A DNA stretch of 42,189 nt from Candidatus Gastranaerophilales bacterium (GTDB lineage: Bacteria; Cyanobacteriota; Vampirovibrionia; Gastranaerophilales; Gastranaerophilaceae): positions 1 through 42,189 of the forward strand of contig CALUPH010000016.1 of the NCBI GenBank assembly GCA_944322615.1, given 5' to 3'. The stretch's first letter is position 1; each line of letters starts with the position of its first letter. The position numbers and the translations under genes were made by a program. Of the stretch, positions 22,314 to 32,005 are shown piece by piece. The notes under the pieces are model-generated. The model did no database searches and was not told the DNA's origin. It worked only from the letters and a program-made list of their open reading frames with translations.

Positions 22314-25300
22314 CTAACGATAAATTAATTCTGAATTTCTATATTTATCAATACTGTCATAAGTCAATTTATCATCCTTCATATAATATTTCAATGCTTC
22401 CAAATAAGCCTTAGCAGTATCTAGAACAGTAAAGCATGGTGTTGAATACATTTCTGCAATTGTTCTGATTAAAAAGCCTCTGTCTTCACTTCCATATCTA
22501 GCTGAATTATTATTTGTTGTAGGAGTATTTATGATAAAGCAAAGTTCTTTATTTTTCATATTTCTTTGTATTTTTTGGATATCAAATTTTTCAATTTCTT
22601 TTGATTCTATATTATGAAGTTTTAAAAATTTATGAGTACCGGTTGTTGCAACTAAGTTATAACCTAAATCAACAAGAGTTTTTGCCACCTCTACACTATC
22701 TTTCTTATAATGATCATTAATCGAGATTAATACATTACCTCTCTCCTTGGAAAGTTTATATCCGGCAGCTAAAAATCCTTTAATCAAAGCTCTTTCATAA
22801 TTAGTATCAACACCTAAGACTTCACCCGTAGATTTCATTTCAGGAGCCAAAGCCGGGTCTATCCTGTTTAATTTTTGGAACGAGAATATAGGTATTTTTG
22901 CACATACAAGATTCGTAGTATCTACCAATCCGGGCTTATAACCTTGTTCTATAATTGATTTACCCATTATTGCATCTATTGCAATTTTTACCATAGGGAT
23001 TCCCGTAACTTTACTTAAAATAGGAACAGTTCTTGAAGCACGCGGATTTACCTCAATTATATATGCAATATTATCCTTCAGTACAAATTGAATATTCATA
23101 AGCCCTTTTACTTTAAGTGCTCGTGCTATTTTTTCAGTATAATCTATCAAGTTTTTAATAACTTCATCAGATATTGTTCTTGTTGGATATAGTGCGATAG
23201 AGTCACCCGAATGTATTCCTGCTCTTTCTATATGTTCAGTAATTGCAGGAATTAATACATTCTCACCATCTGAAATTGCATCAAGTTCAAGTTCTGTACC
23301 TTCAATATATTGGTCGATTAAAATAGGATGTTCATCTGAGAATTTCAACGCTCCTTCAATATATGAAATAAGTTCATCTTTATTATAAACTACCTGCATT
23401 CCTCTTCCGCCTATTACATAAGATGGTCTTACCAAAAGCGGATACCCAAGTGTTTTTGCAACTTCTAATGCTTCTGATTGTTTTTTTATTGCAAATCCTT
23501 TTGGTTGCGGTATTTTCAATTCTCTCAATAACTGTTCAAATAATTTTCTATCTTCAGCTATATTAATTGAATCTAATGACGTACCTAAAATTTTAACACC
23601 TCTTGCGTGAAGTTTTGGAGCCAAATTAATAGCCGTTTGTCCTCCAAATTGAACCATTACACCTTCAGGATTTTCTTTTTCGATTATATTCATTATGTTT
23701 TCAATATGCATTGGTTCAAAATATAATTTATCTGCAACATCAAAATCTGTTGAAAGCGTTTCAGGATTTGAATTTACAATTAATGACTTATAATTATGAT
23801 TTCTTACTTCCCAGGCTGCATGTACAGAACAATAGTCAAATTCTATACCTTGACCTATTCTTATCGGACCTGAACCTAAAATCAAAATTTTCTTATCTTC
23901 ACTATTAGAATTGCTTTCATCAAATTCATTGTATGTTGAATAATAATATGGAGTGTAAGCTTTAAATTCAGCCGCACAAGTGTCAACAATTTTAAATGAA
24001 GCACTTATTGAATTTTCTTTTCTCATTTTTTCAATATCAGATAATGAATTTTGAGTATATTTTGCTATTTCTTCATCTAAAAAGCCTTTTTCTTTTGCTT
24101 CTAAATATAAATCGGGAGTTAAAGTTTCACTTTTCAACCTATTTTCAAAATCAACCAAACTTTTTATTTTATATATAAACCATTTATCTATTTTTGTTAT
24201 TTTATTGATTTCATCAACACTAATACCACGATTTATAGCTTCTGCAACTCTAAAAATTCTTCTGTCATCTTGAACATGCAAAAGTGCTTTTAGTTCTTCT
24301 TCGCTACATTCAATATGACGACCTCTTAATAGACCTGTATATTTGGACTCTATTGAAGTTATAGCTTTTTTGAATGAACTTTCAAATGTTCTTCCGATAG
24401 CCATTACTTCGCCTGTAGCTTTCATTTTTGTACCAAGAATTCTATCGCCGTGTTTAAATTTATCAAACGGCCATTTAGGAATTTTAGTTACAACATAATC
24501 GATTGCAGGTTCAAAGGCTGCAACTGTTTTCTTTGTAATTGAATTTGGTATTTCGTGGAGATTATATCCGATTGCTATTTTTGTTGTTATTTTTGCAATA
24601 GGATAGCCTGTTGCTTTAGAAGCTAGAGCTGATGAACGGCTTACTCTTGGGTTAACTTCTATTACATAATATTGATTACTTACAGTATCTAAAGCAAATT
24701 GGACATTACATCCGCCTTCAATTTTCAACGCTTTAATAATCTTCAATGCTGCACTTCTTAGCATTTGACATTCTTTATTAGTTAAAGTTTGTGTTGGGGC
24801 TACTACAAAACTGTCACCCGTATGAATACCAATAGGGTCAATGTTTTCCATATTACATATTGCAATACTTGTATTATTTGCATCTCGAATTACTTCATAT
24901 TCAATTTCTTTATATCCTGCAATACTCTTTTCAACAAGAACTTGAGAAATAGGACTTAAAGACAAACCTGTATATACTATCTCTTCATACTCACCATAGT
25001 TATTGGCAATACCACCCCCGGTACCTCCAAGAGTATATGCAGGTCTTACAATAATTGGGAAACCTATCTTTTGTGCAAATTTCTTTGCTTCTTCAAAACT
25101 CGAAACAATGTCACTTTCAGGTATGGGTTCACCTATTTCCAGCATAAGATTTTTAAATAGCTCTCTATCTTCTGCTTTTTTTATTGATTCAATTTTGGTA
25201 CCTAAAAGTTCAACATTGTATTTTTCCAAAATTCCGGCTTCATATAAGCTTACTGCAAGATTCAAACCTGTTTGACCGCCTAAGGTTGCGATAATTCCGT

Positions 25301-25550
25301 TTGGTCTTTCTTTATCTATTATATAAGTTAACGATTCTACAGTTAAAGGTTCTATATAAACTTTATCCGCAATATTTTCATCTGTCATAATTGTTGCAGG
25401 GTTTGAGTTTACAAGAACCACTTCAATTTTTTCTTCTTTTAGTGCTCTACAGGCTTGAACACCTGCATAATCAAACTCAGCAGCCTGACCTATAACTATA
25501 GGACCTGAACCGATTACTAAAACTTTTTTTATTTTTGTATTTATTGGCAT
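22314..25550 (-). CDS. carB: Carbamoyl phosphate synthase large subunit
   Basis: At 1078 residues it has the full CarB length. It makes carbamoyl phosphate from ammonia, bicarbonate and two ATP, with ammonia channelled from CarA. Two homologous ATP-grasp halves are visible: the first begins VLVIGSGPIVIGQAAEFDYA, the second ILILGSGPIRIGQGIEFDYC near residue 560. Glycine-rich loops YTLGGTGGG and YVIGGRGM mark the two ATP sites. The last ~150 residues form the MGS-like regulatory domain (LVATTGTHKFL), where UMP or ornithine effectors bind in other species. It lies 48 bp after the pyrF-carA fusion, in the same operon. Confidence 0.97.
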   Translation of the reverse strand: MPINTKIKKVLVIGSGPIVIGQAAEFDYAGVQACRALKEEKIEVVLVNSNPATIMTDENIADKVYIEPLTVESLTYIIDKERPNGIIATLGGQTGLNLAVSLYEAGILEKYNVELLGTKIESIKKAEDRELFKNLMLEIGEPIPESDIVSSFEEAKKFAQKIGFPIIVRPAYTLGGTGGGIANNYGEYEEIVYTGLSLSPISQVLVEKSIAGYKEIEYEVIRDANNTSIAICNMENIDPIGIHTGDSFVVAPTQTLTNKECQMLRSAALKIIKALKIEGGCNVQFALDTVSNQYYVIEVNPRVSRSSALASKATGYPIAKITTKIAIGYNLHEIPNSITKKTVAAFEPAIDYVVTKIPKWPFDKFKHGDRILGTKMKATGEVMAIGRTFESSFKKAITSIESKYTGLLRGRHIECSEEELKALLHVQDDRRIFRVAEAINRGISVDEINKITKIDKWFIYKIKSLVDFENRLKSETLTPDLYLEAKEKGFLDEEIAKYTQNSLSDIEKMRKENSISASFKIVDTCAAEFKAYTPYYYSTYNEFDESNSNSEDKKILILGSGPIRIGQGIEFDYCSVHAAWEVRNHNYKSLIVNSNPETLSTDFDVADKLYFEPMHIENIMNIIEKENPEGVMVQFGGQTAINLAPKLHARGVKILGTSLDSINIAEDRKLFEQLLRELKIPQPKGFAIKKQSEALEVAKTLGYPLLVRPSYVIGGRGMQVVYNKDELISYIEGALKFSDEHPILIDQYIEGTELELDAISDGENVLIPAITEHIERAGIHSGDSIALYPTRTISDEVIKNLIDYTEKIARALKVKGLMNIQFVLKDNIAYIIEVNPRASRTVPILSKVTGIPMVKIAIDAIMGKSIIEQGYKPGLVDTTNLVCAKIPIFSFQKLNRIDPALAPEMKSTGEVLGVDTNYERALIKGFLAAGYKLSKERGNVLISINDHYKKDSVEVAKTLVDLGYNLVATTGTHKFLKLHNIESKEIEKFDIQKIQRNMKNKELCFIINTPTTNNNSARYGSEDRGFLIRTIAEMYSTPCFTVLDTAKAYLEALKYYMKDDKLTYDSIDKYRNSELIYR

Positions 25551-25598
25551 TTCTATCTCTTTCTATAATTTCAATTACCTTATCAAACTTTCAGACTG

Positions 25599-27434
25599 TT
25601 AAACCAAAAGCTTTTTCTCTTTTTCTACATTTTCTATCCAGCTTGATATAACTTTATTTGCATCATATGGTCCTGCTGTTAATTCAGGATGGAATTGAAC
25701 AGTTTTTATTTTATATTTATCACAACTGATTCCTTCTATAGTATTATCATTTAAGTTGATGAATGTTGTTTTTACATCAGCAGGAAGAGAATCAGACTCA
25801 ACAGCATAACTATGGTTTTGAGCTGTAATAAATATTTCATTTGTTTCCATATTCATTACAGGATGATTTCCGCCCCTGTGACCGTATTTAAGTTTATAAG
25901 TTTTTGCTCCTAGTGCCAGTGATATTATTTGATGTCCAAGACAAATTCCAAATAAAGGTAATTTACCTAATAATTCTTTTGCTGTTTCTATAGCTTGTTT
26001 TGCGTCTTCAGGATTTCCAGGTCCATTTGATATAAGTACAGCATCAGGATTTTCATTTAGAATATCTTCAGCTTTTGCATCTGCCGGGAAAACCGTAATA
26101 TCGCAATTTAAAGCTTTGAAATTTTCAAGTATGCTCTTTTTTATACCCATATCTATAATTGCAAGTTTTATTCCTGTTCCTGAATATTTTTCTACTTTAT
26201 AAGTAGTAACATCCATTGTAATATCTTTACTTATCCTGTAATTTCTCATCTTTTCTTTTATTTCAGGAGTAATATCACCTGTCGTTATAGCACAATTCAT
26301 TGCACCATAATTTCTTATGATTTGAGTAAGATGTCTTGTATCTATACCTTTTAAACCTACTATATTATTTTGTTTTAGGTATTCTGCCAAAGGTAGTGCA
26401 CTTTTATAATGAGATTCATGTTCACACATATTCTTTACAATAAAACCTTTAGCGTGAATTTTTCCTGATTCAAAATCATCTTTATTAATTCCGTAATTAC
26501 CTATTTCAGGATATGTCATAACTATTGTTTGACCTGCATAAGAAGGATCTGTAAGTATTTCTTGATAACCAACCATTGATGTATTAAATACAATCTCACC
26601 ATAAGAAGTTCCGTCTGCTCCAATTGATTCACCTTCAAAAATCATGCCGTTTTCAAGAATCAATTTACCTTTTGAAACCGCATAAGATTTATTTTGAGTA
26701 AGCATTGCATTTTCAATTTCTTCGTATATCATTTGAATTGCTTTAACTCTATCTTCTGCACTTGTAACGGCTCTTCCTATAACCAAATAATCAGCACCTT
26801 CTTTTATTGCAATACTTGGTGTAGCAAGACGCTTTTGATCATTCTTATTTGACCAATCAGGTCTTATGCCGGGGCATAGAACTTTAAAGTCTTTACCGCA
26901 TACTTGCTTGATTTTCTTAGCTTCCCAAACACTTGCAACAACGCCATCCAAACCTGCATTTTTTGCCATCAAAGCCAAATGAATAGCATATTCGTTCGGT
27001 TTATAAGGAACTTTAAGTTCTTTTTGCAAACTTTCTTCGCTTATACTTGTTAAAACCGTAACACCTAGTATAACCGGATTTTCTTTACCAAGTTCTTTTG
27101 CTGTTTTTCTTGCTGCTTCTTGAGCCATTCTCATCATTTCTTCACCACCTGTTGTGTGAAGATTAAAAAATGAGGCACCATTTCTGATTATATTTTCGGA
27201 TGCTTTTGCAACTGTATTGGGTATATCATGGAGCTTAACATCAAAAAAGAACTTTATATTTTGTTCTTTCATAAAGTTAAAAATTTCATAGCCGTTACCT
27301 GTATACATTTGCAAGCCGACTTTAAATATACCGACATAATCTTTAAGTTCGGTAATTAATTGTTTTGCTTGTTCAGGTGTATCAACATCTAAAGCAAGTA
27401 CGATTTTTTCTTTGATTTCTGGTCTTATTTGCAT
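25599..27434 (-). CDS. pyrF-carA: Fusion of orotidine 5'-phosphate decarboxylase and carbamoyl phosphate synthase small subunit
   Basis: A 611-residue two-enzyme fusion. Residues 1-240 are PyrF, which decarboxylates OMP to UMP: LALDVDTPEQA, the catalytic block FFDVKLHDIPNT (63-74) and ADYLVIGRAVT (215-224). A short linker (240-254) leads into CarA, residues 255-611, the glutamine amidohydrolase subunit: LENGMIFEGESIGADG, SNGPGNPEDA and FGICLGHQ with Cys498 as nucleophile, plus His582 and Glu584 of the triad. Both halves have normal length and intact catalytic residues, so this is a genuine in-frame fusion, not a degraded gene. It joins the last step of UMP synthesis to the first. AGGATAA precedes the ATG, and pyrC ends 6 bp upstream. 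Confidence 0.93.
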   Translation of the reverse strand: MQIRPEIKEKIVLALDVDTPEQAKQLITELKDYVGIFKVGLQMYTGNGYEIFNFMKEQNIKFFFDVKLHDIPNTVAKASENIIRNGASFFNLHTTGGEEMMRMAQEAARKTAKELGKENPVILGVTVLTSISEESLQKELKVPYKPNEYAIHLALMAKNAGLDGVVASVWEAKKIKQVCGKDFKVLCPGIRPDWSNKNDQKRLATPSIAIKEGADYLVIGRAVTSAEDRVKAIQMIYEEIENAMLTQNKSYAVSKGKLILENGMIFEGESIGADGTSYGEIVFNTSMVGYQEILTDPSYAGQTIVMTYPEIGNYGINKDDFESGKIHAKGFIVKNMCEHESHYKSALPLAEYLKQNNIVGLKGIDTRHLTQIIRNYGAMNCAITTGDITPEIKEKMRNYRISKDITMDVTTYKVEKYSGTGIKLAIIDMGIKKSILENFKALNCDITVFPADAKAEDILNENPDAVLISNGPGNPEDAKQAIETAKELLGKLPLFGICLGHQIISLALGAKTYKLKYGHRGGNHPVMNMETNEIFITAQNHSYAVESDSLPADVKTTFINLNDNTIEGISCDKYKIKTVQFHPELTAGPYDANKVISSWIENVEKEKKLLV

Positions 27435-27440
27435 TTTTAT

Positions 27441-28715
27441 TTATCCTATATTAATTATTTTACCTTTTATTATTGTCATTTTGGGTTTACCTTTTAATTT
27501 ATAACCGTCAAATGGAGAAATACGGCATTTTGATTTAAATTTTGAAGCATCGACAACCCACTCTTCATTCAAATCAATTACTGTCATATTAGCTTCTTTC
27601 CCGATTTCGATAGAGCCTTGATTTGGAATATTTAAAATCGAAGCAGGTGAATATGTTAATTTTTTTATTGCCTCAATTAAACTCAATTTTCCTGTATGAA
27701 CAAGATAAGTAAGTGTAATACCTAGAGCAGTTTCAAACCCTGCAAGTCCCATTGGAGCCATTTGGATAGGAAGTTGTTTTTCATGAACAGTATGTGGAGC
27801 GTGATCTGTAGCTATTACATCTATTGTTCCATCCTGAAGACCAGTTATTACTGCTTCTAAATCTTCTTTTGTTCTCAATGGCGGATTAACTTTGTATTTT
27901 GCATCATAATCAACGATATCGTTTTCAGTCAAACTAAAATAATGAGGAGCTGTTTCTGCCGTTACATTCAAACCTTCTTTTTTTGCTTGTCTGATAAGTT
28001 CAATAGAGCGTTTTGTTGATATATGTGCGAAATGATATTTCCCATTTACGGCTCTTACAACTTCAAGTTCTCTGGCAACTGCCAATGATTCTGTAATATC
28101 AGGTATTCCTTTCAACCCAAGACGAGTTGAAACTTTACCTTCATTTATTACTCCGCCATTAGCTAATGATGAATCCTCCGAATGCGAAATAATTACTGCA
28201 TTATGAGAATTTACATATTTCAATGCTTCTTTTAATAAATGCATATTTTCAACAGGCTTACCATCATCAGAAAATGCAATTGCACCGTTTGAAATAAGTT
28301 CTGAAACATTAACTATCTTCTCGTTTGAAAGTCCTTTTGTAACAGCACATATAGGGTGGAACCCAATATCTGATACTTCTTTTGCCTTGATTATTGTATA
28401 CATTAATGTTGTAGAATTATCAACAGGCGGATTTGTATTTGCCATAGGACAAATTGCAGTATAACCTCCATTTATAGCGGAAGATATTCCCGTCTTTATT
28501 GTTTCTTTTGAGTTAAAACCTGGTTCTCTAAGATGGCAATGAATATCAACAAGTCCGGGAGTTAGTATTTTCCCGGTCAAATCAATGATTTCTTCACTCT
28601 GACTTGGAACAATATTAACAGCTATTTCTTTTACAATTCCATTTTCTATACGTATATCAGAAATACCTTCATAATTTGTTTTCGGATTTATTATTTTTGC
28701 ATTTTTAAGAAGCAT
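27441..28715 (-). CDS. pyrC: Dihydroorotase
   Basis: A 424-residue class I dihydroorotase that closes carbamoyl-aspartate to dihydroorotate. The metal-binding motif is DIHCHLREPGFNSKE. The block GGYTAICPMANTNPP follows. IATDHAPHTVHEKQ near residue 305 contains the catalytic Asp. The start ATG overlaps the end of pyrB by 11 bp, with AAAGGGG inside pyrB as the ribosome binding site. Confidence 0.96.
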   Translation of the reverse strand: MLLKNAKIINPKTNYEGISDIRIENGIVKEIAVNIVPSQSEEIIDLTGKILTPGLVDIHCHLREPGFNSKETIKTGISSAINGGYTAICPMANTNPPVDNSTTLMYTIIKAKEVSDIGFHPICAVTKGLSNEKIVNVSELISNGAIAFSDDGKPVENMHLLKEALKYVNSHNAVIISHSEDSSLANGGVINEGKVSTRLGLKGIPDITESLAVARELEVVRAVNGKYHFAHISTKRSIELIRQAKKEGLNVTAETAPHYFSLTENDIVDYDAKYKVNPPLRTKEDLEAVITGLQDGTIDVIATDHAPHTVHEKQLPIQMAPMGLAGFETALGITLTYLVHTGKLSLIEAIKKLTYSPASILNIPNQGSIEIGKEANMTVIDLNEEWVVDASKFKSKCRISPFDGYKLKGKPKMTIIKGKIINIG

Positions 28716-29622
28716 TATTGTCCCCTTTCAATAATGTATTCAATATTGCCATTCTTACATATACACCATTTTGTGCTTGTTCTAATATAGTTTTTCCTAC
28801 TTGATTATCAAGAAGTTCAGAGGAAACTTCTATATTTCTGTTTGCAGGTCCGGGATGCATTAAAATAACATCCTTTGCTGCATATTTTCTTAACAATTCT
28901 GTATCTATTTCATACAGTCTTTTGTATTCGGAAGAATCAGGATAACCTTCTTTCTCATGTCTTTCGTTTTGAACTCTTAAAACCATTACTACATTTGAAC
29001 CGTCAATAGCTTCTTTTACTTCGTTATGATAATGAATATTAAAAGCCTGTTCATTTTCAAACTGTAAATATGTAGGAGCACACAAATGAATATCTGCCCC
29101 GAATTTTGAAAGCAAACTTATGTTTGATTTTGCAACTCTGGAATGAGAAACATCACCAACTATTGTTATTTTTTTGCCTTCAACACTACCTATTTTTTCA
29201 AGCATTGTATAATAATCAAGTAATGCTTGAGATGGGTGTGCGTGAGTTCCATCTCCACCATTTACAAAATGAATAGGATACTTAACCAATCTCATTACAT
29301 TATTAATTATTCCTGATAAAGAATGTCTTATAACAACAGCATCTACCCCTAAAAAGTATAAATTTTCGATTGTATCTTTTAGACTTTCACCCTTTGAAAG
29401 TGATGAATGATTAGCATCAAAATTTATTATATTCATACCAAGTTTTTGAGCAGCTATTTCAAAACTACAGCGTGTTCTTGTTGAATTTTCGTAAAACATT
29501 AAAGAAAGAGTCTTTTTTTCAACATCAGACTTTTTTCTTCCTGTTTTAAATTCTTTTGCTAAATTTATGATATTTTCTATTTCTTCTTTAGAAATGCTTT
29601 TAATATCAATTAAATGCTTCAT
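28705..29622 (-). CDS. pyrB: Aspartate carbamoyltransferase catalytic subunit
   Basis: A 305-residue enzyme that joins carbamoyl phosphate and aspartate. The carbamoyl phosphate loop is FYENSTRTRCSFE (about 43-55). HPSQALLDYYT near residue 127 and LMHPGPANRNIEV near the C-terminus are further ATCase hallmarks. No regulatory pyrI is present in the window. It shares a TAATG stop/start with pyrE upstream and overlaps pyrC downstream. Confidence 0.96.
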   Translation of the reverse strand: MKHLIDIKSISKEEIENIINLAKEFKTGRKKSDVEKKTLSLMFYENSTRTRCSFEIAAQKLGMNIINFDANHSSLSKGESLKDTIENLYFLGVDAVVIRHSLSGIINNVMRLVKYPIHFVNGGDGTHAHPSQALLDYYTMLEKIGSVEGKKITIVGDVSHSRVAKSNISLLSKFGADIHLCAPTYLQFENEQAFNIHYHNEVKEAIDGSNVVMVLRVQNERHEKEGYPDSSEYKRLYEIDTELLRKYAAKDVILMHPGPANRNIEVSSELLDNQVGKTILEQAQNGVYVRMAILNTLLKGDNNAS

Positions 29623-30200
29623 TATGCGTTTGCCTTTACTTCTGTTCTGCTTCCCGGTTTAACAAGTTCTATACCTTCTTTGCATAAAGGACAATCATTA
29701 GGCTCATATACAACAGGATCTATTTGCAATAATGACTTGATATTATACTCTGTTTTTCCTTTTGTTCTGTCAACAATACATCCAACTGCAACAACTTCAG
29801 GTTCATATTCTTTAATAGCTTCCATTGTTTCTTTTATAGTTCTGGCTGTTGTAATTACATCTTCTATAATTACAACTTTTTCGCCTTTCTTTAAAGTATA
29901 ACCTCTTCTTAATTGCATTACTCCGTCTTTTCTTTCAACAAATAGATTACGTTTTTTTGCATTTTTTGCTGTCTCATAACCTATAATTACAGCACCTATA
30001 GCGGGAGCCACTATAGTATCAAATTCAATATCAGAAAGTTTTTCAGCAAGTCTTTTCCCTAACTCTGAAGTTATTTCAGGATATTGATACAACTTTGCAC
30101 ATTGAAAATAAATATCTGAATGCAAACCTGATGTAAGGCAAAAATGCCCGTGTAAAACACCTTCCGCCTGCTCTAATAAATTTAAAACTTCATTTGTCAT
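29622..30200 (-). CDS. pyrE: Orotate phosphoribosyltransferase
   Basis: A 192-residue enzyme that converts orotate and PRPP to OMP. The type I PRTase PRPP-binding motif is VVIIEDVITTARTIKE (about 108-123), preceded by a Lys/Arg-rich flexible loop (KRNLFVERKDG). The C-terminus has CPLCKEG, which could bind a metal, in a form seen in some longer OPRTs. The start overlaps the pyrD stop by one base. Confidence 0.94.
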   Translation of the reverse strand: MTNEVLNLLEQAEGVLHGHFCLTSGLHSDIYFQCAKLYQYPEITSELGKRLAEKLSDIEFDTIVAPAIGAVIIGYETAKNAKKRNLFVERKDGVMQLRRGYTLKKGEKVVIIEDVITTARTIKETMEAIKEYEPEVVAVGCIVDRTKGKTEYNIKSLLQIDPVVYEPNDCPLCKEGIELVKPGSRTEVKANA

Positions 30201-31114
30201 TATGCCCTCAATTCTTTCTTTAATTCATCTAAACTTTTAAACCCACTTTTATTTATATATTCATCCAGTTCTTCAACAAGTCTTTCTGCTGTATCAGGAT
30301 GTGTAAAATTGGATGTACCAATTTGAACTGCTTCAGCGCCTGCAGCAAAAAATTCAAGAACATCATCCAATGTTTCTATTCCGCCTATTCCGATTATTGG
30401 AATATTAATCACTTTATATAAACGAGAAACCGCATTAATTGCAACAGGTTTAATCCCTTTACCGGAATATCCGCCTTGAACTATTGTTTTTTTATATTTC
30501 CCATTTATTAATTCTAATTTTATTGAAGTACCCTTCAATGTATTTATTGCACTTACTGCGTTTGCACCGGCTTTTTCAGCTGCAATTCCTAATTTTTCTA
30601 TAGAAGTAACATTCGGAGTAAGTTTTATTATTAAAAATCCGCTATAAACTGCTCTTACTGCACTAACCAGTTCATATAAAGAATTTTCATCCGTTCCAAA
30701 CTCTAAACAGCCTGATTTCACGTTAGGACAAGAGACATTCAATTCAATGGCTTTAATCTTTTCATTTTCGCATTTTTTTGCAACTTGAACATATTCATCA
30801 ATGGTAGAACCTGCAACATTCATAATATAGTTAATATTATTTTGTTTAAGTTCAGGAATTTTTACTTCTATAAATTTTTCAATCCCAACATTTTCAAGCC
30901 CGATGGAATTTATCATGCCTGCTTCAGTTTCTGTAATTCTGATATGTTTATTTCCCGCACGAGGATATAAAGAAATCGCCTTAGTTACAATAGCACCAAT
31001 CTTTGAAACATCAATAAATTCATCAAATTCATTAGCATAACCATATGTACCTGATGCGGTCATAATCGGATTTTTCAATTCAAGTCCGTCAAAATTTACA
31101 CTTAACTTCCCCAT
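30200..31114 (-). CDS. pyrD: Dihydroorotate dehydrogenase B, catalytic subunit
   Basis: A 304-residue class 1B enzyme that oxidises dihydroorotate to orotate with FMN and passes electrons to PyrK and NAD+. It has the typical start LSVNFDGLELKNPIMTASGT, the active-site loop NVSCPNVKSGC with the class 1 catalytic Cys, and FMN-phosphate motifs IGIGGIETLDDVLEF and GAEAVQIGT. It overlaps pyrK by 13 bp, as expected for a heteromeric pair. Confidence 0.95.
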   Translation of the reverse strand: MGKLSVNFDGLELKNPIMTASGTYGYANEFDEFIDVSKIGAIVTKAISLYPRAGNKHIRITETEAGMINSIGLENVGIEKFIEVKIPELKQNNINYIMNVAGSTIDEYVQVAKKCENEKIKAIELNVSCPNVKSGCLEFGTDENSLYELVSAVRAVYSGFLIIKLTPNVTSIEKLGIAAEKAGANAVSAINTLKGTSIKLELINGKYKKTIVQGGYSGKGIKPVAINAVSRLYKVINIPIIGIGGIETLDDVLEFFAAGAEAVQIGTSNFTHPDTAERLVEELDEYINKSGFKSLDELKKELRA

Positions 31115-31851
31115 ACTACCTCATTTCCTTTAAATACAGGACCGTCTTTGCATACAGTAGCATTTATAATTTTACCGTCCTTTTTAATATCAATAACGCA
31201 ACCTCTACACACACCGATTCCGCAAGCCATAACTTTTTCCATTGCTACTTGAGTTTCAATTACGTATTTTTCACCCAACTCTGAGATTATTTTCAATACT
31301 ATATGAGGTCCACAAGCATATATGACTTCAGGTTTATATTCATTGATAATTACACCTATATAATTTAAAACACTGCCTTTTTCACCAAAAGAACCATCAT
31401 CTGTGCATATTTTATCTATTTCCATACCTTTAGGTATTTCATCTTTATTCAAAAAACCGGCAATAAAACAATTTTCTATATTTCCATTGTCTAATTTTGT
31501 CTTTAAATAAGAAATAGGAGCGGCTCCAATACCTGCTCCAATTAACAATGCTTTTTTATTTTTGATATCAAATGAATTACCGAAAGGACCTGCAATATCT
31601 ATATTATCACCAACTTTTAACGACTTTATATATTTTGTACCTTTGCCTCTTTCTTTAAATAGAATACCAATTTTTCCATCATTATTTGAATAAACACTAA
31701 ATGGTCTTCTCAAAGTTAAACCGTTACAATAAATTGATATAAATTGACCGGCTTCAACCCAAACAGGATTCTCGCATTCAATTTCAATAAAATAAGAACT
31801 TGAACTCACTTTCTCTATTTTATTAACTTTTGCTTTGTATATCTTCTTCAT
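31102..31851 (-). CDS. pyrK: Dihydroorotate dehydrogenase B, electron transfer subunit
   Basis: A 249-residue FAD and [2Fe-2S] subunit that links PyrD to NAD+. The FAD-binding motif is LRRPFSVYSN, the NAD-binding loop is LIGAGIGAAPISYLK, and the [2Fe-2S] ligands sit in MACGIGVCRGC near residue 210 plus a later Cys (ATVCKDGPVF). It is the first structural gene of the pyr operon, following a leader with an attenuator-like hairpin. Confidence 0.95.
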   Translation of the reverse strand: MKKIYKAKVNKIEKVSSSSYFIEIECENPVWVEAGQFISIYCNGLTLRRPFSVYSNNDGKIGILFKERGKGTKYIKSLKVGDNIDIAGPFGNSFDIKNKKALLIGAGIGAAPISYLKTKLDNGNIENCFIAGFLNKDEIPKGMEIDKICTDDGSFGEKGSVLNYIGVIINEYKPEVIYACGPHIVLKIISELGEKYVIETQVAMEKVMACGIGVCRGCVIDIKKDGKIINATVCKDGPVFKGNEVVWGS

Positions 31852-31878: not shown

Positions 31879-31918
31879 AAATTCAAAAAAAAAGAAAAAC
31901 AGACAGTTTTTCTTTTTT
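31879..31918 (-). terminator. Attenuator-like hairpin in the pyr leader
   Basis: A 13-bp inverted repeat AAAAAAGAAAAAC / GTTTTTCTTTTTT with loop TGTCT on the minus strand. Its 3' arm runs into nine T, then GAATTTTTTTG. It lies between the pyr promoter and the pyrK start, 37 bp from the ATG, so it would end transcription before the operon unless prevented. The stem is mostly A-T and only moderately stable. Confidence 0.5.
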
Positions 31919-31924
31919 CTATAT

Positions 31925-31954
31925 TTATTCAATTTTTATCAAATAATGTTTCAT
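31925..31954 (-). CDS. Possible pyr leader peptide (9 residues)
   Basis: ATG to TAA encodes MKHYLIKIE. AAGG lies 8 nt upstream. The stop codon is 6 bases before the 5' arm of the attenuator hairpin, so a ribosome at the stop would cover that arm. Very short ORFs occur often by chance in AT-rich DNA; position is the main argument. Confidence 0.35.
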   Translation of the reverse strand: MKHYLIKIE

Positions 31955-31976
31955 GTCATTTACCTTATTTTTAAGT

Positions 31977-32005
31977 ATTATCTGACCAATAATATTTAAA
32001 GTCAA
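31977..32005 (-). promoter_or_regulatory. Promoter of the pyr operon
   Basis: Minus-strand -35 TTGACT (32000-32005), 17-bp spacer, -10 GATAAT (31977-31982), close to consensus. The predicted leader of about 118 nt holds the leader ORF and the attenuator-like hairpin. The rest of 31852-32128 shows no gene. Confidence 0.65.

Follow-up and report, generated by a model that had tools for sequence, protein, structure and literature searches.

To our knowledge, UTP-sensitive attenuation that depends on a coupled ribosome is known mainly from enterobacteria. In pyrBI of Escherichia coli and Salmonella, a promoter, a leader reading frame (pyrL) and an intrinsic terminator precede pyrB, the first gene of the operon. 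A ribosome close behind RNA polymerase prevents the attenuator hairpin from forming, a pyrimidine-rich tract serves for sensing, and there is no dedicated regulator protein. The threshold distance between ribosome and hairpin is reportedly about 14-16 nt, a value attributed to Roland et al. With its 44 codons, the pyrL frame reads through the attenuator and ends 3 nt short of pyrB; the tract, TTTTTCTTCCC, precedes the attenuator hairpin, which is G-C rich.

In the rph (orfE)-pyrE operon of E. coli the upstream frame, a full gene, ends shortly before a terminator whose 3' arm, GTCGCC, is not made of pyrimidines only. Moving the stop codon away from the terminator, as in rph-1 of MG1655, is said to lower pyrE expression, a result credited to Bonekamp in 1984 and Jensen in 1993, both cited in PMC5933015. 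In Firmicutes, PyrR controls pyr leaders in which an intrinsic terminator again precedes the pyr genes. The trp and his leaders combine a short translated frame and an intrinsic terminator with control codons and a competing antiterminator, and in them more than 20 bp separate the leader stop from the terminator (PMC4824070). In E. coli, ribosomes repress a terminator nearly completely when it follows a stop codon by a few nucleotides, and termination returns once the distance exceeds about 30 nt (PMC4824070); a passage of the same source credits Roland et al. with a steep version of this effect for pyrBI. As a counterpoint, short distances from stop to terminator have also been taken to indicate uncoupling (PMC7858274).

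Full-text searches that paired attenuation with the names Melainabacteria and Gastranaerophilales, or with pyrimidine genes of cyanobacteria, turned up no account of the leader described below; most subscription papers lay outside these searches.

Anatomy of the Gastranaerophilales pyr leader

The window, which is the whole stretch of 42,189 nucleotides that was analysed, belongs to a genome of Candidatus Gastranaerophilales, gut bacteria akin to cyanobacteria, and carries on its minus strand a pyr operon with the order pyrK-pyrD-pyrE-pyrB-pyrC-pyrF/carA-carB. The elements of the leader all lie on the same strand, between the promoter and pyrK, the first gene:

32000 to 32005, minus strand: -35 element TTGACT of the pyr promoter, by sequence match; TTGAC in nearly all relatives of the genus
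31977 to 31982, minus strand: -10 element GATAAT, separated from the -35 element by a 17-nt spacer
31963 to 31966, minus strand: putative Shine-Dalgarno sequence AAGG of the leader frame, 8 nt before its ATG
31925 to 31954, minus strand: leader frame of nine codons (MKHYLIKIE) and TAA; a short frame lies in the same place in 18 genera
31919 to 31921, minus strand: relic stop TAG, in frame two codons past the present stop; it sits at the base of the hairpin, the usual stop position among relatives
31886 to 31920, minus strand: predicted terminator hairpin, with a purine-rich 5' arm (31920-31906), the loop TGTCT and a pyrimidine 3' arm (31900-31886)
31885 to 31899, minus strand: pyrimidine tract TTTTTCTTTTTTTTT, unbroken over 15 nt of 3' arm and U tract; proposed site of RNA polymerase slowing
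31885 to 31893, minus strand: run of nine T at the 3' end of the hairpin
31102 to 31851, minus strand: pyrK, dihydroorotate dehydrogenase electron transfer subunit, ATG at 31851 (NF000798, E 2e-46, 158 bits, below the curated cut-off of 219)
22314 to 31114, minus strand: pyrD, pyrE, pyrB, pyrC, the pyrF-carA fusion and carB, the last assigned by sequence and place only

The promoter, TTGACT-17-GATAAT, agrees with the consensus at 10 of 12 positions, and transcription would start near 31970. Nearly all relatives of the genus have TTGAC followed by a TATAAT-like hexamer at 17 nt (16 in one). In most congeners the leader ATG lies 21-22 nt from the -10 element and is preceded at 7-10 nt by AGG or AAGG; this ribosome site and the conservation of the frame suggest that it is translated. 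The hairpin has a folding energy of -12.1 kcal/mol (z -3.5). It contains two G-C pairs only and was missed by a simple terminator scan; with its T run it probably terminates transcription. The gene upstream of the leader is divergently oriented here, which rules out that the hairpin is the ordinary terminator of that gene. As for a second promoter downstream of the hairpin, the only candidate was a weak 9/12 match with an AAAAAT box at 31959-31932, which sits upstream of the hairpin anyway and was set aside.

These positions agree with the preliminary description, which had given the near-consensus promoter, the nine-codon frame at 31925-31954, the AAGG and the nine-T run correctly. Its hairpin "six bases after the stop" is right for a stem begun at that point; the distance is four bases when all pairs are counted. 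It had also held that the same geometry controls pyrBI, which is wrong in detail, given the course of pyrL through the attenuator and the place of its tract.

The likeness to pyrBI is one of mechanism, not of geometry. Promoter, leader frame and terminator come in the same order, and a sensing tract and a ribosome are the working parts proposed, but two anatomical features of pyrBI are absent. By the same reading procedure that was applied to the E. coli leaders, most Gastranaerophilales frames stop at the base of the hairpin, and their pyrimidine tract is formed by the 3' arm of the hairpin itself together with the U tract. In addition, the hairpin is AT-rich and the first gene is pyrK. The layout is closer to that of rph-pyrE, although the frame is not a full gene and the 3' arm is all pyrimidine; in this comparison the rph stop of MG1655 is displaced by the rph-1 frameshift that the strain carries. 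The control codons and competing antiterminator of trp and his were looked for in the leaders and were not found.

Elsewhere in the operon, the single reading frame at 25599-27434 fuses orotidine-5'-phosphate decarboxylase (PyrF) to the small subunit of carbamoyl-phosphate synthase (CarA).

Recurrence of the leader among relatives

Taken singly, the elements are not unusual. Promoter-like matches occur in this DNA at the level of chance (82 found, 75 expected), and a nine-codon frame is unremarkable in sequence so rich in A and T. The leader stands above chance because promoter, frame, stop position and hairpin recur in relatives. PyrK is up to 98% identical in named relatives, which are labelled Candidatus Gastranaerophilales or just Cyanobacteria or bacterium. 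The first 40 upstream regions examined, nearly all from the same genus, have promoter, frame, hairpin and U tract in that order. A search of the family with pyrK added 25 loci, most with the same layout, and a covariance model built from the genus alone found leaders in other genera before pyrK genes only about 50% identical. Altogether the layout is found before pyrK in almost every congener and in about 17 genera besides, among them members of two other families (G040, G045 and G048; G044). The preliminary description had named loss of hairpin and frame in relatives as the result that would count against it; both are kept, in other genera as well as in about 40 leaders from the genus and near relatives. 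In the f3 and f4 families of the order, relatives with pyrK have no such terminator leader.

Eleven genomes of ten genera of the family (G058, G061, G065, G070 and others), comprising all the pyrK-less genomes tested, are without both PyrK and PyrB. The loss in these genera seems to concern the pathway and not the leader as such, and the joint absence suggests that pyrimidine synthesis was lost early or more than once.

Several congeners have repeats between the pyr terminator and pyrK. Those at L009:1124-1456 consist of three copies of a 112-nt unit that are 99% alike, and similar repeats occur in L011, L016, L021, L022, L024, L026 and L027. In these congeners the leader is retained, though displaced up to 500 nt upstream of pyrK.

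Within 1.56 Mb of the window's genome, the pyr site alone combines a short frame and ribosome site with a long pyrimidine run, and no other operon has a convincing leader of this kind. A search of the whole genome with the model gave one match below E 0.8, the pyr site.

Stop codon, peptide and hairpin

In 43 of 58 leaders the stop codon falls between -15 and +8 nt of the hairpin core, taken as the outermost G-C pair. Shuffling the sequence between ATG and hairpin with dinucleotides preserved gives 9.0, a comparison that rules out chance placement; for each leader the start codon closest to the usual distance was taken, a choice that may slightly favour the pattern. The leaders are related by descent, so that per-leader counts overstate independence, an effect that is reduced, not removed, by taking one leader per genus, when 10.3 of 18 stops lie in range against 2.7 expected (p about 4e-4). 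The median distance from stop to core is 4 nt; in ordinary genes of the genome the terminator follows the stop at a median of 22 nt, and in 75% of them at more than 12 nt. The frame mostly has 9-17 codons. In the window the gap is 12 nt, which is still within the zone covered by a ribosome and, like the median, closer than the 14-16 nt of pyrBI. The exceptions include a frame that runs through the hairpin as pyrL does (L013), three that stop inside it (L009, L017, L026) and one that stops 17 nt before it (L023).

The stop of the window's clade lies 6 nt upstream of the usual one through a change of TAT to TAA, which gives GAA TAA ATA TAG in place of the GAA TAT ATA TTA TAG of L008. Six related genomes (L001-L005, L035) have the shortening at the positions of window 31927-31919, as TAG in one of them.

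These distances bear on the idea that the hairpin is a fixed partial terminator which holds pyr expression at a constant low level, the frame being incidental. In its favour, the predicted terminator is weak and short frames are frequent in AT-rich DNA, but the stop position is constrained across genera and the Shine-Dalgarno sequence and its start distance are kept; we consider this the least probable of the readings weighed here.

The peptide is another matter. Within the genus it is recognisably similar, MK(H/R)xLxKIEYx, as would be expected if a small molecule caused the nascent chain to stall the ribosome close to the stop, where it would block the hairpin. Against such an arrest peptide, codons 2-9 vary by 0.82, 0.82 and 0.65 bits at first, second and third positions, with no third-position excess. 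Third positions are no freer than the other two, and therefore conservation does not act on the peptide as such. Between IEY and the stop there are anywhere from 0 to 7 codons, and other genera have unrelated peptides (MNIKFKLEVNIN, MNIKMSKFEYIR, MSIKNKNIFIYT, MKFTDVFHTKFVYF and more). An arrest peptide is thus very unlikely, and a conserved micropeptide was rejected by the same codon-position test.

The hairpin is preserved in a different way. Thirty-four distinct stems over 18 genera keep their pairing with A-U/G-C exchanges at the same positions, a count made in register that is supportive only, since the hairpins had been selected for pairing; a covariation count on a MAFFT alignment (A1) was set aside with the hairpin out of register. 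The orientation of the pairs is more telling, as selection of hairpins does not impose it. Outside the apex, 95% of 5'-arm bases in the leaders are purines, compared with 61% in 208 end-of-gene terminators of the window's own genome chosen by the same rule. A 5' arm made up of purines only is seen in 16 of 18 genera, in 9% of the 208, and in none of 41 ordinary terminators from two other genera that bear the leader. The pyrimidine run formed by 3' arm and U tract has a median of 15 nt and is 86% U; the median in the 208 ordinary terminators is 9, and about 1% of them reach 15. The run also stands well apart from the ordinary terminators of the two other genera. The leaders have no pyrimidine-rich tract upstream of the hairpin, this run being the sole long one. 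Its conservation supports a putative role in pyrimidine sensing.

It is here that another form of ribosome coupling can be weighed, in which the leader would sense general translation capacity (the speed of initiation or elongation, or growth state) and the terminator would trim pyr expression when ribosomes are scarce. All the structural evidence for coupling fits this equally well, as does the freedom of the peptide. It leaves without explanation the pyrimidine-only 3' arm in 16 of 18 genera, and it fails to explain why 1.56 Mb of genome should hold the leader at pyr only; we judge it unlikely.

One leader of another genome (L130, G124:C21) shows full complementarity between its Shine-Dalgarno region, AAGGCAAAAC, and its terminator 3' arm, GTTTTGCCTT; the two could form an alternative pairing.

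Effector and proposed mechanism

The terminator might be controlled by PyrR or another RNA-binding regulator, or by a riboswitch, and PyrR in the Firmicutes offers a precedent. The preliminary description had noted the absence of PyrR from the window, and that absence extends to the whole genome: none of 58 genomes, this one included, has a match above the NF003549 cut-off, in a search whose controls were detected, and the weak match in the window's genome is HPRT. No PyrR-binding loop or antiterminator was found in the leader, and Rfam gave no credible match to it even at E up to 1. A second structure inside the frame, antiterminator or pause hairpin, can be folded in the window's leader, but z averages 0.04 across the 58 leaders and no other conserved fold appears. 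The RNA ahead of the hairpin is only about 50 nt long. Control by such a protein or riboswitch is accordingly highly improbable. Rho was not found in the window's own genome (G000) or in nine of ten relatives; NusG is present. The single Rho match, at the start of a contig in G003, may be contamination. With no PyrR, no other fold and no Rho, the ribosome is the natural effector.

We regard it as likely, from the comparative evidence, that the leader is a cis-acting attenuator of the pyr operon that couples transcription to translation, and that a ribosome standing at the stop of the leader frame lifts the attenuation when pyrimidines are short. RNA polymerase would start near 31970 and make about 85 nt of leader RNA. 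Loading of a ribosome on the leader frame would follow almost immediately because the Shine-Dalgarno sequence is within a few bases of the 5' end. When pyrimidine nucleotides are plentiful, the polymerase would be fast, the hairpin would form ahead of the ribosome and transcription would stop at the U tract. When UTP (and CTP) is scarce, the polymerase would be slowed in making the run of about 15 pyrimidines in the 3' arm and U tract. The ribosome, by then at the stop beside the hairpin base, would cover the 5' arm, no hairpin would form, and pyrK and the later genes would be transcribed.

The distances are consistent with this order of events. A ribosome in contact with polymerase needs about 26 nt. 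The pyrimidine run follows the start codon at a median of 57 nt and the stop at a median of 21 nt, so that a ribosome at the stop would be in or near contact with the polymerase. That the ribosome blocks the hairpin is suggested by the conserved stop position, and transcription and translation may be coupled in the Gastranaerophilales lineage. The translation-coupled attenuation proposed in the preliminary description is thus strongly supported by comparison of relatives; its second element, UTP as the signal, is a plausible reading of gene context and pyrimidine run, and the supply of CTP may contribute.

The compact layout, with one frame, one hairpin and a tract inside the hairpin, allows a direct test in a laboratory host. 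More tentatively, with chances that fall a little short of even, the leader may be a minimal one-hairpin sensor, in which the 3' arm and U tract, preserved as an uninterrupted run of pyrimidines through changes of the paired bases, would read UTP and CTP and a frame of about 12 codons would act as a ruler that brings the ribosome to the slowed polymerase. Such a sensor would have arisen independently of enterobacterial pyrBI, and it may be the standing pyrimidine control of Gastranaerophilales, which would manage it without PyrR and Rho.
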